Origin: Methylacidiphilum sp. Yel | GTDB taxonomy: Bacteria > Verrucomicrobiota > Verrucomicrobiia > Methylacidiphilales > Methylacidiphilaceae | Direction: 5' to 3' | Length of the DNA stretch: 36,970 bases | Assembly: GCF_004421185.1 (NCBI RefSeq) | Contig: NZ_LXQB01000050.1 | Span: forward strand, 1-36,970 | Shown here: positions 4,418-26,013 of the stretch, one piece after another | Layout: each line of letters starts with the position of its first letter | Numbering within the stretch: the stretch's first letter is position 1 | Made by a program: the position numbers and the translations under genes | Notes under the pieces: model-generated | Told to the model about the DNA's origin: nothing | Seen by the model: the letters and a program-made list of their open reading frames with translations, nothing else | Databases searched by the model: none

Positions 4418-5572
4418 ATGACCCGATTCATATACTTGGATAACAATGCGACTACACCTGTTGATCCTGAAGTCCTTAAGGAAATGGTTCCCTTTTTTTC
4501 TGTCTACTATGGGAATCCTTCCAGTCCTTATCGACTTGGTCAGGAAGCCAAGCAGTATGTAAAAAAATCAAGGATTGCTCTTGCCCGGTTTTTAGGTTGC
4601 GAAGAAGAAGAAATTGTTTTCACTAGCTGTGGGACTGAATCAAATAATGCTGCGATTTTGTCTGCGCTTCGAACAACAGGGAAAAAAAGAGTCATTACGA
4701 CGGCCACCGAACATTCTGCCATTTATGAGTTATGCGTTGACTTGGAGAAAAGAGGGTTTGAAGTTCTGAGAATCGGTGTGAATGCATCTGGTTTATTAAA
4801 GCTGGAAGAGATAGAAAAACATCTGACTGCGGATACAGCTATTGTCTCTGTTATGTGGGCCAATAACGAGACCGGTGTGGTTTTTCCTATCGAGCAAATC
4901 GCAGCAATGTGTCAAGAAAAAGGGGTGTTATTTCATACCGATGCGGTGCAGGCGATTGGGAAAATTCCGATTGATCTATCCCAGATCCCCGTTGATTTTC
5001 TTTCTTTGACTGGTCATAAGTTTTATGCACCAAAAGGGATTGGTGCCTTGTTCATTCGTAAAGGAAAACAGTTTGAACCTTTTATGCGAGGCGGATCTCA
5101 AGAGATGCATCGTCGTGCTGGAACAGAAAATGTCCCGGCTATTATTGGAATGGGCAAAGCTATAGAGATCCTCTCTCAGAACATGGAAGAAGATAATAAG
5201 CGAATTTTACAGCTAAGGAATCTTTTAGAGTCGAGGATCTTAGAAGAAATTCCTTTTACAAAAGTCAATGGTGATAAAGAGCATAGAATTGTTAATACGA
5301 CAAATATCTTTTTTGAGGGCGTAGATTCAGAAACTCTTCTTTTTGATCTTGACCAAAAAGGCATATATGCCTCTGGTGGATCGGCTTGCACAACAGGTTC
5401 ATTGAAGCCATCTAGGGTATTGACGGCCATGGGTCTAAATCCTATAGAAGCCAAATCAAGTATTCGTTTTTCCTTAGGAAGGTATAATACTGAAGAAGAG
5501 ATTCATAGAGCTGTTGACGAGATTAAAAAGTCTGTGGAAAAAATAAGAAAAAAATTACCGAAGTCTTCGTAG
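4418..5572 (+). CDS. nifS: cysteine desulfurase, NifS/IscS type
   Basis: A 384-residue PLP enzyme that takes sulfur from L-cysteine and hands it on as a protein persulfide. The N-terminus (YLDNNATTPVDPEVL) and GNPSS are diagnostic. His99 (TEHS), the PLP lysine Lys201 (TGHKFYAPKG) and the sulfur-carrying Cys324 (GGSACTTGSLKPSRV) are all present. The loop around Cys324 is of the long, group I type. No iscU or iscA neighbour is present; instead it sits upstream of mobA, mobB and moeA, and fdhD lies 10 kb away. In E. coli IscS supplies sulfur to FdhD, so a role in molybdenum cofactor sulfuration is plausible, but a general Fe-S role cannot be excluded. Confidence 0.9.
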   Translation: MTRFIYLDNNATTPVDPEVLKEMVPFFSVYYGNPSSPYRLGQEAKQYVKKSRIALARFLGCEEEEIVFTSCGTESNNAAILSALRTTGKKRVITTATEHSAIYELCVDLEKRGFEVLRIGVNASGLLKLEEIEKHLTADTAIVSVMWANNETGVVFPIEQIAAMCQEKGVLFHTDAVQAIGKIPIDLSQIPVDFLSLTGHKFYAPKGIGALFIRKGKQFEPFMRGGSQEMHRRAGTENVPAIIGMGKAIEILSQNMEEDNKRILQLRNLLESRILEEIPFTKVNGDKEHRIVNTTNIFFEGVDSETLLFDLDQKGIYASGGSACTTGSLKPSRVLTAMGLNPIEAKSSIRFSLGRYNTEEEIHRAVDEIKKSVEKIRKKLPKSS

Positions 5573-18625: not shown

Positions 18626-19085
18626 GTAGAAAGACTATAGATTGATTTTAATAAACGGCTCCAGCAAGCCTTTCCGATGGGAGAGCCGTATGGTGCATAC
18701 AGTAGGAGCAATCGACTACTTGATTGGTAAACCGGTTTTTTTTTCTTGTATGCATTGGCTGGTCTCTGAAACCAAAGCTGTCTTTCTATTCCGTGAAGCC
18801 TAAGCCTTGGTCTCATTATAGCTAGGTAAAGAAGATGGGACACAAAAGAGCCAGCTGATTTATCCCCCCTCTGCTATGGTAGCTTCTTTGTGATGCTTAA
18901 TCGATGGATCAATTGTTTTACCCTCTATAGCTTCTAGCCCTTCAAAACAGTGGAGGGGGGGGTGAACCGCAGCAAAGAACAAAGTGTTTAGCCCTTTTGA
19001 CTTACCTACCCAAAGCAAGTTGCAATGCCGAATTGCAGAGAGGATTTTAGATAGAATACTTCTTTAAAGCAAAAATAAGAGAAAA
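18626..19085. other. 460-bp gap without recognisable gene; two hairpins
   Basis: Between modC and the RNase P RNA 3' end no convincing coding frame was found. ACGGCTC (18655-18661) pairs perfectly with GAGCCGT (18683-18689), and a second palindrome GTATG-GTG-CATAC overlaps its end (18688-18700). Further on, a CCCCCCTC run (near 18870) and a GAGGGGGGGG run (near 18953) are roughly complementary. The region may hold a decayed mobile element or an uncharacterised RNA, but no family signature is visible. Confidence 0.35.
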
Positions 19086-19495
19086 GATACCGAGGGGAAT
19101 AAGCCGGATTCTGTAATCCAGTCTCCTGGATTTGTCGCCATCTGTCTATCCCTGAGGGATCCGCTCAATCAAGGAGCGGTGCGGTCTACCTGGGACATCT
19201 CAAATCTAACTTTGAGATTTGAGAATGGCAAGGCTACCATTGTCCCTGCTTGACCTTGCTCCACAATGGGTTTGTCCTGCCATGGATGTTACCATCCATG
19301 CGGTGGGCTCTTACCCCGCCTTTTCACCCTTACCCAAAGTTCTCTTTGGGCGGTATTTTTTCTGTGACACTCTCCGTCTTGAATGGCTTTCGCCAATTCA
19401 AGCCCATTGTTTCCAATGGATTGTTGCCTTGAAGAGTCCGGACTTTCCTCTCGGTGCTTATAGCCCCGAGCGGCGACATCCCCTTGGTATCTGTT
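19086..19495 (-). ncRNA. rnpB: RNase P RNA (bacterial, about 410 nt)
   Basis: The catalytic RNA of RNase P, which matures tRNA 5' ends. Read on the minus strand it opens with GATACCAAGGGGAT, and the 3' end ATTCCCCTCGGTATC pairs with it as helix P1. The universally conserved GAGGAAAGTCCGGACTC (CR-I), a central GGTAAGAGCCCACCGC block, AGGTAGACCGC and the 3' CGGCTTATTCCCC are all present in order. An internal hairpin CTCAAATCT/AGATTTGAG extends one helix. Open frames over this interval (for example 19219-19506) are spurious. End points are estimated from P1 and could be off by several bases. Confidence 0.95.
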
Positions 19496-19606
19496 TAATA
19501 GAATAGCCAATCTTTTTGTTCCTTGCAAATAGAACAAGACCTTTATAGAGCTTAACCTTCATGAAAAGGCTTAATAGTCTCTAAAAAAATACCCATTGAT
19601 AGCAAC

Positions 19607-23513: not shown

Positions 23514-23539
23514 TCTTCCATTGAAAATTGACTTTATCT

Positions 23540-23580
23540 AGCCGCTGCCTAGAAACTCGTTTGTTTGTAAGGCAGCGGCT
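23540..23580 (+). terminator. perfect 11-bp inverted repeat after xoxF
   Basis: AGCCGCTGCCT (23540-23550) and AGGCAGCGGCT (23570-23580) pair perfectly around a 19-nt loop, starting 27 bp after the xoxF stop. No T-tract follows, so it is not a standard intrinsic terminator. It could stop RNA decay at the 3' end of xoxF mRNA or partly reduce read-through into xoxJ and xoxGJ. Confidence 0.6.
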
Positions 23581-23766
23581 GGATAGCCTTGAACAAAGCG
23601 ATTTGTTGCTTTGCGAAAAAGGCAGAAGCACGTTACAAATCAAAACTTTTTTAGAAGAATCGGATTGGCTTTTTTTAATCAGTCTAAGCCTCTAGGGAAA
23701 AGCGGATATAATCCTTGAAGAGATAGAGGATAGGGGATAGGTTCTAGAAAAGGAAAAGGAGCAAAA

Positions 23767-24639
23767 ATGGGTGGGTTAAGGTTTCATTTTTTACATAGGC
23801 TAAAGATATTATCATTTAGCCTGCTCTTTGTGTTTTTTATAGGGTTCGTATGCAAGGCAGAGGAAATCTGTTCCTGTGCTGATCCAGGAAATCTTCCTTT
23901 TTCGAATCAAAAATTGGAAGGATTTGAGAATAAAATCGCTCAGATCGTAGCCGATTCACTGCATGTTCCTCTATCTTATTATTGGTTTGCTCATCAACGT
24001 GGTCTTGTTCGAAATACGTTGAAAATAGGAAAATGCAATGTGATTATTGGAGTGCCGTCAACTTGGGGGCAAGTGCTAACTACAAAACCTTATTATAGGA
24101 CTTCCTATGTAATGGTTTATAAGAAAGATAAGGGCTTAAATATTCAATCCTTGGATGATCCCGCTTTGAAGCATTTAAAAATAGGAGTGTTGATAAACAG
24201 TCCGCCCCATCAACTTCTTGCTGAAAAAGGGATTATAGAAAATGTTGTTGGATATTCTCCATTCTTTGATCCTGTGTTCCATCCTGAAGATTCCCCTGGG
24301 AAAATCGTTGAAGAGGTTTTAAGTGATAAAATTGATATTGGTCTTGTCTGGGGACCAGTGGCAGGTTTTTACATCAAAAAGAAGGGTTCTGCCTTAATCA
24401 TGGTTCCTTTGACAAGTAATAATCCGAGAATTCCAATGGCCTTTGACATTTCCATGGGGGTCAAAAAGGGGGATCAAGAGCTTAAAAACAAACTTGATCA
24501 GGTTATCGATTCGAAACATGGAGAAATTTTACAGGTTCTTGAAGAATATGGTGTTCCATTGCTAAAAACTACAGCTGATATCGAACAAAACACGAATATC
24601 GGAAAAGGCCACGAAGTTTCAGCAAAAAACATCAACTAA
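23767..24639 (+). CDS. xoxJ: XoxJ, quinoprotein-associated periplasmic binding protein
   Basis: A 290-residue protein of the solute-binding-like family that accompanies PQQ alcohol dehydrogenases. After a signal sequence (hydrophobic about residues 14-29, then KAEE) come CADPGNLPFSN, the LKIGKCNVIIGVPSTW block and TKPYYRTSYVMVYKK, the standard J-protein motifs. The second lobe contains KIGVLINSPPHQLL and DIGLVWGPVAGFYI. XoxJ is thought to bind the dehydrogenase and help its activation or maturation rather than transport a solute. It lies 253 bp after xoxF, beyond the hairpin, and 31 bp before xoxGJ. It may be transcribed from xoxF or from its own promoter. Confidence 0.88.
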   Translation: MGGLRFHFLHRLKILSFSLLFVFFIGFVCKAEEICSCADPGNLPFSNQKLEGFENKIAQIVADSLHVPLSYYWFAHQRGLVRNTLKIGKCNVIIGVPSTWGQVLTTKPYYRTSYVMVYKKDKGLNIQSLDDPALKHLKIGVLINSPPHQLLAEKGIIENVVGYSPFFDPVFHPEDSPGKIVEEVLSDKIDIGLVWGPVAGFYIKKKGSALIMVPLTSNNPRIPMAFDISMGVKKGDQELKNKLDQVIDSKHGEILQVLEEYGVPLLKTTADIEQNTNIGKGHEVSAKNIN

Positions 24640-24670
24640 CAATATTAACTTTTATTTATCAGAGCTAAGA

Positions 24671-25549
24671 ATGAAAAAAATTAGCATTGTTTATTTAATG
24701 TTGTCTTTGTTGCCATTGAGTAGTCTTTTTGCCCAAGCAAAAAATCCTTATACTCCATCAGATAAAACGGTCGTTTCTCAGGGTAAAGAATTATACTTTA
24801 AGATGGGATGTAACGGTTGTCATGGAGCAGGGGGTGGCGGTGGGATGTGCCCTTCTTTTATAGATGATACGTGGGTTTTTGGTAGCGACGATCAGACCCT
24901 ATTTAAACTCATTAAAGGACAGATTCCTCAACAAACGATGCCAAGAATGTTTGGTGGAGTGCTGACCGATGACGAAATATGGAAGATTATTACCTTTGTA
25001 AGGTATTGTAAAGTTGCTGCTTCCGAACAGGCCGGAGGCACCTCTGGTCAGATAAATATAGATAAGAAATCATGTGCTATAGTGGAAGCTGACCCTCATT
25101 GGCTCAGAGCCGTTCTTCCTAAATTGACGGGATATCAAAGCCAATATGTTTTAGTTTTTGATGGTACTTCAAAGAATTACTCATCTGCAGAAGACAGTAA
25201 ACTTGCTGGCTCTACACTTGCTGTTCTCGATAATAGTTCTGGAAAAGAAATAGCTAGCTTGCTTCATGCCAAACCTAAAGTATATCCTGACAAAGAAAGA
25301 GAACTAGGAAAACCAGTGGAAGATCTTTTAGCAGGAAAAGTAGATGGGGCTATATTATGGGCTCCTCTGGCCGCTTTTTATACGATGGAATTGGATTCAT
25401 CGAGGAAACTTAAAATGATAGCATTTTCCAAAGCATATCCCGCCCCTAAAGGATTTGAAGGTCAAGAACAAAGCTCTATGGTATATGTAACAAAATGCGC
25501 TGACGCCTTGCTCAATGTACTAAAAGTATATAATGTAGCTCCAAAATAA
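24671..25549 (+). CDS. xoxGJ: XoxGJ: cytochrome c fused to a shortened XoxJ-like domain
   Basis: A 292-residue periplasmic fusion protein. A signal peptide ends near residue 22 (SLFAQA). Residues 35-115 form a class I cytochrome c with haem motif CNGCH (residues 47-51) and a likely axial Met in QTMPRMFGG (Met90 or Met93). Residues about 125-292 resemble the second lobe of XoxJ: VEDLLAGKVDGAILWAPLAAFYTM aligns with the IVEEVLSDKIDIGLVWGP region of the separate XoxJ upstream. The first-lobe J motifs (GVPSTW, YYRTSYV) are absent. From the family, the cytochrome accepts electrons from XoxF; a cytochrome cGJ of this kind is known in Methylacidiphilum. Confidence 0.9.
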   Translation: MKKISIVYLMLSLLPLSSLFAQAKNPYTPSDKTVVSQGKELYFKMGCNGCHGAGGGGGMCPSFIDDTWVFGSDDQTLFKLIKGQIPQQTMPRMFGGVLTDDEIWKIITFVRYCKVAASEQAGGTSGQINIDKKSCAIVEADPHWLRAVLPKLTGYQSQYVLVFDGTSKNYSSAEDSKLAGSTLAVLDNSSGKEIASLLHAKPKVYPDKERELGKPVEDLLAGKVDGAILWAPLAAFYTMELDSSRKLKMIAFSKAYPAPKGFEGQEQSSMVYVTKCADALLNVLKVYNVAPK

Positions 25550-25644: not shown

Positions 25645-26013
25645 ATGGGAGAGAATCTTTCTGAAGAAAAATGTGTTGCGTGCCGTGGAGATGCCCCCAA
25701 AGTGACACCAGAAGAGAAGGAAATACTAAGTAGGCAAATTCCAGAATGGAAAATTGTCGAAAAAAATGGGGTAGAAATGTTGGAAAGAAAATATGAGTTC
25801 CCTGATTTTGCATCGGCTTTGATCTTTACCGAAAGAGTTGGAAAACTTGCTGAGAATGAAAAGCATCATCCTTCTATTTTGACGGAATGGGGAAAAGTTA
25901 CAGTGTGGTGGTGGACCCACAAGATCAACGGATTACATCGCAACGATTTTATTATGGCAGCAAAAACAGATAGCCTCTACCAACCACTTTTAAAAGATTA
26001 TATTGAATCGTGA
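25645..26013 (+). CDS. pterin-4a-carbinolamine dehydratase-like protein
   Basis: A 122-residue protein of the PCD/DCoH family. The active-site block ENEKHHPSIL (His74, His75, Pro76) and the later WWTHKINGLHRND (His92) are present, so the catalytic set looks complete. An N-terminal CVAC (Cys10, Cys13) and TPEE segment matches the common bacterial form. The classic role is recycling of tetrahydrobiopterin for phenylalanine hydroxylase, but no such enzyme is in view; some bacterial members are linked to molybdopterin metabolism, and this window has many Moco genes. It lies 95 bp after xoxGJ and may be read from the same promoter. Confidence 0.85.
   Translation: MGENLSEEKCVACRGDAPKVTPEEKEILSRQIPEWKIVEKNGVEMLERKYEFPDFASALIFTERVGKLAENEKHHPSILTEWGKVTVWWWTHKINGLHRNDFIMAAKTDSLYQPLLKDYIES

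Follow-up and report, generated by a model that had tools for sequence, protein, structure and literature searches.

Organization of the locus

The stretch of DNA analyzed here, called the window below, is 36,970 nucleotides long and belongs to a genome of 2.25 Mb in 88 contigs. It carries xoxF, xoxJ, xoxGJ, and a pterin dehydratase gene in this order, all on the + strand, with 31 bases between xoxJ and xoxGJ (Table 1). In xoxGJ, a cytochrome c is followed by a shortened XoxJ part, designated here as the half-J, and the gene adjoins xoxF and a complete xoxJ, as in the definition of cytochrome cGJ. The phmmer alignment of XoxF with 4mae_A, a methanol dehydrogenase entry, namely, the enzyme of M. 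fumariolicum SolV, covers all 577 residues with 11 mismatches as counted from the alignment; because of this match, the organism is taken to be a Methylacidiphilum. Upstream of these genes, the window holds an ORF with tandem repeats and an RNase P RNA, and the two ORFs overlapping the latter are probably spurious.

Table 1. Features of the window with their positions, strands, and supporting evidence.
Feature	Position	Strand	Evidence or remark
ORF of 517 aa	13411-14964	-	His/Gly/Trp-rich; C-terminal tandem GGFHGGM-like repeats
RNase P RNA class A	19084-19489	-	RF00010, 227 bits; overlaps ORFs 19219-19506 and 19289-19537
xoxF, lanthanide-dependent methanol dehydrogenase, 611 aa	21678..23513	+	phmmer to 4mae_A
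Hairpin between xoxF and xoxJ; stem of 14 bp, with arms at 23536-23549 and 23571-23584	23536..23584	+	Folding, alignment
xoxJ, 290 aa, periplasmic binding protein with both lobes complete	23767..24639	+	TIGR03871 2-232/232; 6onp
XoxJ residues 37-89, N part of the first lobe, motifs CADPGN-PFSN and GFENKIA	23875..24033	+	Shuffle control; profile alignment
XoxJ residues 110-232, hinge strands and lobe 2, common to XoxGJ (W195 at 24349-24351)	24094..24462	+	Model elements, alignment
xoxGJ, cytochrome c and half-J fusion, 292 aa	24671..25549	+	ORF, Pfam, TIGR03871, model
Cytochrome c domain, XoxGJ residues 25-112, CNGCH at 47-51	24743..25006	+	Pfam Cytochrome_CBB3 E 1.7e-10; TIGR03872 E 7.1e-13
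Half-J, XoxGJ residues 129-290	25055..25540	+	hhalign 98.3% to XoxJ 84-264; model, fold search
Cys135 of XoxGJ, aligned with XoxJ Cys90, 6/6 fusions	25073..25075	+	Alignments
Lobe-2 core of the half-J, XoxGJ residues 155-256	25133-25438	+	Model, fold search
W230 of XoxGJ, in the half-J	25358-25360	+
Cys276 of XoxGJ, new in the fusion, 6/6	25496..25498	+	Alignment
Pterin dehydratase gene	25645-26013	+	Pfam Pterin_4a

The 253-nt gap between xoxF and xoxJ has a predicted folding energy of -77.1 kcal/mol (z -3.79), and none of 200 shuffled sequences is as low. Its hairpin starts 22 bases past the xoxF stop codon, and the stem can be aligned in all five genomes of the window's genus (g1) with 95.6% of 68 cells paired, while sliding the hairpin partner drops the pairing to 51.5% or less. 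Two pairs are changed on both sides, which is a modest control, as 98 of 500 shuffles also reach two. As a guess, the hairpin might set the difference in transcript level between xoxF and xoxJ-xoxGJ.

A complete XoxJ beside the fusion

XoxJ (P0001) is matched by TIGR03871 (XoxJ/MoxJ-2) over positions 2-232 of 232 (E 2.6e-93), and its 311.9 bits lie above the cut-off of 212.15 bits. By sequence, it also matches the XoxJ structure 6onp (E 9.5e-55). The model predicted from a 13-row alignment, with a mean pLDDT of only 68.1 and a pTM of 0.63, contains strands and helices of both lobes; it aligns with 6onp over 207 of 211 residues (Z 20.7), and also with 5sv6 and 9ism_B (“Cryo-EM structure of MxaF/MxaJ complex”). 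The lobe borders in Table 1 are our own reading of the secondary-structure elements of this model. From the full-length profile match and the two-lobe model, the neighboring XoxJ is intact, just as the first-pass annotation had described it. J proteins bind the partly folded apo-dehydrogenase and aid insertion of PQQ and metal, according to the accessible text of a review (PMC12997753), and in M. extorquens AM1 growing on methanol with La, loss of xoxJ or xoxG is reported to equal loss of both xoxF genes (PMC7391723, accessible part). The maturation role would presumably be retained by the two-lobe XoxJ in the present organism.

The half of J retained in XoxGJ

In XoxGJ (P0002), the Cys and His residues of the heme motif (C47-H51) and M90 are invariant in all six fusions found in this study, and M90 is likely the axial ligand. 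With 48.8 bits against TIGR03872 (cytochrome cL/MoxG), the protein stays below the equivalog cut-off of 147.8 bits, the CxxCH motif and the Met being present. TIGR03871 matches XoxGJ over positions 53-183 of 232 only (E 1.2e-9), and 38.1 bits fall short of 212.15. BLASTP pairs XoxJ 75-227 with XoxGJ 118-263 at 27% (E 3e-9), and profile-profile alignment by hhalign pairs XoxJ 84-264 with XoxGJ 129-290 at a probability of 98.3%. In a shuffle control against the post-cytochrome part of XoxGJ, XoxJ 89-266 scored 100, a value reached by none of 500 shuffles, and the N part of the first lobe (XoxJ 32-88) scored 26, which was reached by 149 of 500 shuffles; this N part is therefore undetectable there. 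For XoxJ 37-89, a counterpart is found at the extreme end only, where the profile alignment starts. Other pieces of lobe 1 have counterparts, namely, the pre-hinge segment in the Cys90 region and the last helix (VLKVYNV paired with VLEEYGV), the latter match being weak when taken alone (XoxGJ 262-292 vs. XoxJ 222-270; 27 of 500 shuffles as high). Accordingly, the earlier statement that the J part aligns only with the second lobe holds for the lobe 2 match itself and is slightly too narrow with respect to these two segments.

The XoxGJ model, predicted from a 21-row alignment (mean pLDDT 75.7, pTM 0.69), has block means of 89-97 over residues 151-260 and values below 50 in parts of the cytochrome. 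It consists of the cytochrome, a linker, helices at 130-140 and 142-151, strands and helices of lobe 2 at 159-251, and a final helix at 271-286. Fold matches cover about residues 140-282; the best Foldseek match has an E-value of 6.4e-4, and 6gpm, an isolated lobe 2, is matched over 88 of 92 residues with Z 9.7 and an rmsd of 1.8. XoxJ and MxaJ structures are missing from the 50 matches listed for this model by each of the two fold searches, which excludes nothing, and by sequence 5sv6 (MxaJ) matches the half-J only at E 0.45. Residues 130-140 are modeled as a helix though they are profile-aligned with the XoxJ strand around Cys90, so that the lobe-1 stub is either rearranged or poorly predicted. 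A full two-lobe fold, the outcome against which the first-pass annotation had set its proposal, was looked for in the model and by fold searches and was not seen; one lobe only is predicted. By sequence and model, what the half-J retains of an XoxJ-family protein is one lobe, lobe 2, with a small lobe-1 stub.

Conserved positions and exchange of cysteines

Conservation was counted at a threshold of at least 85% in 14 less redundant J sequences out of the 22 in alignment A6, and the GJ side was represented by four sequences standing for six, with two near copies omitted. Between XoxJ residues 34 and 266, 45 positions are conserved on this basis. Thirteen of them (C37 to R82) precede the aligned part and are without counterpart in XoxGJ; together with the shuffle control, this agrees with the earlier claim that the first-lobe motifs are gone. 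Among the 32 in aligned columns, 13 are kept in at least three of the four GJ sequences and 19 are lost. Poorly conserved positions are kept in 6 of 73 cases (Fisher p 1.8e-4 vs. the conserved ones) and those of intermediate conservation in 18 of 50. W195 of XoxJ is Trp in 20 of the 22 J rows, Phe in the two MxaJ rows, and Trp in all six fusions; two generic binding proteins (L091, L092) have D-x-P where the J motif has W-x-P.

The cysteines have been exchanged. Among J proteins, C37 is found in 21 of 22 rows and C90 in all 22, and this pair is broken in the fusion: C37 is lost, and the equivalent of C90 (C135) is retained. Cys135 and the new Cys276 may form a replacement disulfide, which would staple the lobe-1 stub.

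Selection and origin of the half-J

Nei-Gojobori dN/dS is 0.076-0.102 for the half-J lobe (four computable comparisons), 0.036-0.067 for XoxJ lobe 2 (four), and 0.014-0.05 for the XoxGJ cytochrome (three), where several comparisons with G024 and G026 are saturated and give no value and some of the values obtained depend on dS above 1. When the window is compared with G028, a genome of another genus (g3), identity is 67% in the cytochrome, 36% in the half-J, and 50% in XoxJ lobe 2. On these codon and protein comparisons, the half-J is under purifying selection, yet it changes faster than the cytochrome and XoxJ lobe 2. It has scarcely any likelihood of being the functionless remains of another xoxJ copy that read-through had joined to the cytochrome gene: the long stem branch in the tree below and the weak similarity would suit such decay, but dN/dS lies well below 1, which argues against a decaying relic, no gaps occur within the genus except for one signal-peptide residue, and the half-J is retained across two genera despite 36% identity.

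A tree of the shared J part, built from 28 rows and 135 columns, brings the six GJ rows together (100/99) on a stem branch of 1.87. The tree leaves the backbone of the XoxJ rows open, and placing GJ with the XoxJ of this family costs 0.97 log units (AU p 0.256). The duplication proposed in the first-pass annotation, if placed inside this family, is thus compatible with the tree as one possible source of the half-J.

Distribution and counterpart loci

Among the 62 genomes of the order searched with XoxGJ, 21 gave any match and six a nearly full-length one: all five genomes of g1, including the window's own, and G028 (2.5 Mb, 70 contigs), the single genome of g3. In G028, the gene runs open for 332 codons, the half-J included, with 44% identity over 6-291. 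The fusion is thus present, by its predicted product, in a second genus, on which no statement was found in the accessible literature on XoxGJ; in the accessible text of the Ca. Methylacidithermus pantelleriae paper, the fusion is attributed to SolV and Kam1, and the xoxG of that organism is listed with no mention of a fusion. In all six fusion genomes of the two genera, xoxGJ adjoins xoxF and a complete xoxJ. XoxJ itself is present in all 13 genomes of the family, and TIGR03871 at 1e-10 was met in 7 of 387 genomes sampled from the window's phylum.

In seven genomes of a further genus (g2, presumably Methylacidimicrobium) and eight others, the XoxGJ match is confined to the cytochrome (query to 112), and the frame of the stand-alone XoxG of g2 stops 11 residues past this match in all seven. 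The g2 genomes have an XoxF 65-68% identical to that of the window (7/7) and a second XoxF at 56% (6/7; twice in G018). The 65-68% xoxF (L118, L119, L120, L104-L110) has the same MFS neighbor as that of the window in all seven genomes, and a pterin dehydratase gene follows directly in four; in the other three, no dehydratase match occurs in the 546 to 1497 bases examined after xoxF. No xoxJ or xoxGJ match was found in the examined flanks of this xoxF in the seven genomes. The xoxJ-xoxGJ pair is therefore absent at the g2 place equivalent to the window locus, either by gain in g1 and g3 or by loss in g2. Downstream of the 56% xoxF, xoxJ and xoxG follow in the three loci examined, and the second copy of G018 has neither match within 10 kb.

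The g2 XoxJ carries a C-terminal ankyrin-repeat domain in all seven genomes (L049-L055), assigned by similarity to one Pfam-confirmed case (L073:3499-5133). An ankyrin-repeat match was lacking in the g1 and g3 XoxJ loci searched (L043-L048, L072), and no publication on an XoxJ with an ankyrin domain was found in the accessible literature. Another extension is seen in Azospirillum brasilense, where a rhodanese-like domain, which narrowly misses the cut-off of Pfam (E 4.7e-4), follows within the xoxJ gene (L085:3402-4712); this extension resembles the CXXCW proteins that have their own annotated genes next to xoxJ in L086 and L090. On plasmid pTs485 of Ca. Thiodictyon syntrophicum (L082:3728-6786), an annotated IS66 transposase gene lies between the two parts of a divided xoxJ match.

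Farther afield, 395 genomes from the phylum of G446 yielded a single match to alignment A3, by its sequence an ordinary binding protein (L091), and five further genomes yielded one at E 0.29. Among 148 genomes from the phylum of G442, TIGR03871 had two matches, both below the cut-off. Plasmid tblastn with the half-J of the window returned seven records, none covering 80% of the query, and that of G028 returned none. Three of the seven are xoxJ genes also found by XoxJ itself, and one is a Bosea ORF belonging to a small conserved plasmid protein (L079:4067-4285, L094-L097), whose faint likeness to the half-J is taken as chance. The latter protein is matched in 19 plasmid records from alphaproteobacteria, in some cases beside an acyl-homoserine-lactone synthase gene. 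None of the 15 loci from a scan of a contig collection had a J match by phmmer, and viral contigs yielded no relative. For Proteobacteria, these half-J searches covered plasmids and the phylum of G446; half-J fusions may exist in NC10 and in the rest of Proteobacteria.

Possible roles of the half-J

XoxGJ is described as the redox partner of XoxF, has been purified, and is regarded as a carrier to the terminal oxidase (oxidase role, PMC10205796, accessible text); electron acceptance from XoxF is reported, in the accessible literature, for cGJ of SolV. The xoxGJ gene of the window encodes cytochrome cGJ, which would accept electrons from XoxF and which ends in a tail made of lobe 2 of an XoxJ-family protein and a lobe-1 stub. 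We tentatively favor, at somewhat less than an even chance, the idea that the half-J works as a recognition tail in a short-lived contact with XoxF. Having kept some lobe-2 features of the J family, it would touch XoxF briefly and orient the heme domain for electron transfer, and cGJ would then release XoxF and pass the electrons on to the oxidase. The single J-type lobe, the conserved J positions kept in it, W195 among them, the low dN/dS, and the locus common to all six fusion genomes argue indirectly for this idea. On the other hand, the half-J evolves faster, 19 of 32 conserved J positions are lost, and the g2 acceptor lacks a tail in all seven genomes: the g2 XoxG ends so soon after the cytochrome that an acceptor therefore works without one. 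J proteins are reported to act on the partially folded apo-enzyme (PMC12997753, accessible text), so mature XoxF is not necessarily what a J lobe binds. Docking of the half-J on XoxF is nevertheless plausible.

The faster evolution of the half-J relative to the cytochrome and XoxJ lobe 2 would also suit a structural appendage that binds no partner and serves to stabilize the small cytochrome, or to keep it soluble, under the heat and acidity of the periplasm. A new Cys pair that may have replaced the lost one and the compact lobe, predicted with confidence, point in the same direction, but XoxJ-conserved positions, including W195, are kept more often than others, and the related g2 genomes manage with a stand-alone XoxG (7/7). 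We consider this explanation rather improbable, if worth keeping in view.

Transcript levels, a mere proxy for protein, bear on two further explanations. In the accessible text on SolV (PMC12235487), xoxF and xoxGJ stand at 5500 and 440 TPM on methane, about 12-fold apart, and at 2500 and 700 TPM, 3.6-fold apart, on C3 substrates, where the two respond in opposite directions. With 2-propanol/acetone as substrate, transcripts of xoxGJ go up and those of xoxF go down; the existence of a second electron donor is suggested by the authors. The half-J might thus serve a partner other than mature XoxF, such as a pMMO-associated complex, the terminal oxidase, another dehydrogenase, or an XoxJ-apoXoxF assembly; XoxJ itself has been speculated to bind MDH to pMMO (PMC6688271, accessible part). 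This appears unlikely, as the rise is just 1.5-fold and absent in strain IT6 (PMC12235487), and xoxGJ adjoins xoxF in all six genomes that have it.

The first-pass annotation suggested that the half-J may be a docking module by which the cytochrome stays bound to XoxF; in its strong form, this means a permanent, stable complex. An acceptor fused to a piece of a dehydrogenase-binding protein and encoded next to the dehydrogenase would fit this, as would the relatively large amounts of XoxGJ reported in comparison with another carrier (PMC10205796, accessible text). However, the 12-fold lower transcript level and the opposite responses on C3 substrates in SolV, the conserved hairpin between xoxF and xoxJ-xoxGJ, the description of XoxGJ as a carrier to the oxidase (PMC10205796), and its purification make permanent binding very improbable.

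A further idea has a low probability and should be taken as speculation: the acceptor might have captured one lobe of a dehydrogenase maturation chaperone, so that cGJ and XoxJ would compete for the same XoxF surface and cGJ would displace XoxJ once XoxF is finished. If this were true, enzyme maturation would be coupled to electron transfer.

Comparison with known systems

The fusion, the truncated J part, and the docking idea are already known: the accessible text of the Kam1 genome paper describes XoxG:J as a fusion with a truncated XoxJ part, speculated to bind XoxG:J to MDH (PMC6688271). According to the accessible part of a review, Methylacidiphilum has the fusion and a separate xoxJ, while in Methylacidimicrobium xoxG and xoxJ are individual genes and xoxF is of two kinds (PMC8498564). 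Neither the retained lobe nor the Cys exchange is named in the accessible literature found on XoxGJ, a search outside which the original 2019 description lies. To this, the present analysis adds the identity of the retained parts, the occurrence of the fusion in another genus, a counterpart locus that lacks the xoxJ-xoxGJ pair, the finding that the half-J is under purifying selection, and doubt on permanent binding.

With regard to the encounter of XoxF with its cytochrome and to the function of J proteins, a natural half-J on an active cytochrome amounts to a ready-made deletion experiment on which half of J an acceptor can use, and a comparison of cGJ with a tail-less form would bear on whether J lobe 2 is the dehydrogenase-facing half. 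The g2 genomes, with an equivalent xoxF and neither xoxJ nor xoxGJ beside it, offer a natural comparison.

Cytochrome cGJ of SolV, Kam1, and V4 has the same order xoxF-xoxJ-xoxG:J and the same truncated J part as the window, with no difference seen in the accessible text (PMC6688271, PMC8498564); this likeness, between close relatives, was judged from citing papers, the original 2019 description being outside the comparison. Stand-alone XoxG or cytochrome cL (TIGR03872) is, like XoxGJ, a cytochrome c with CxxCH and a conserved Met, whereas XoxGJ falls below the cut-off of that family and bears a C-terminal half-J. The single-lobe fold is shared with 6gpm, domain 2 of the arginine-binding protein of T. 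maritima, but the latter is a lobe of an ordinary amino-acid-binding protein studied alone and is not fused to a cytochrome. With XoxJ and MxaJ (TIGR03871, TIGR03870; 6onp, 5sv6, 9ism), the half-J has lobe 2, the hinge segments, and the J-type Trp in common; unlike them, it is devoid of the N part of the first lobe, has lost Cys37 and gained Cys276, and is fused behind a cytochrome.
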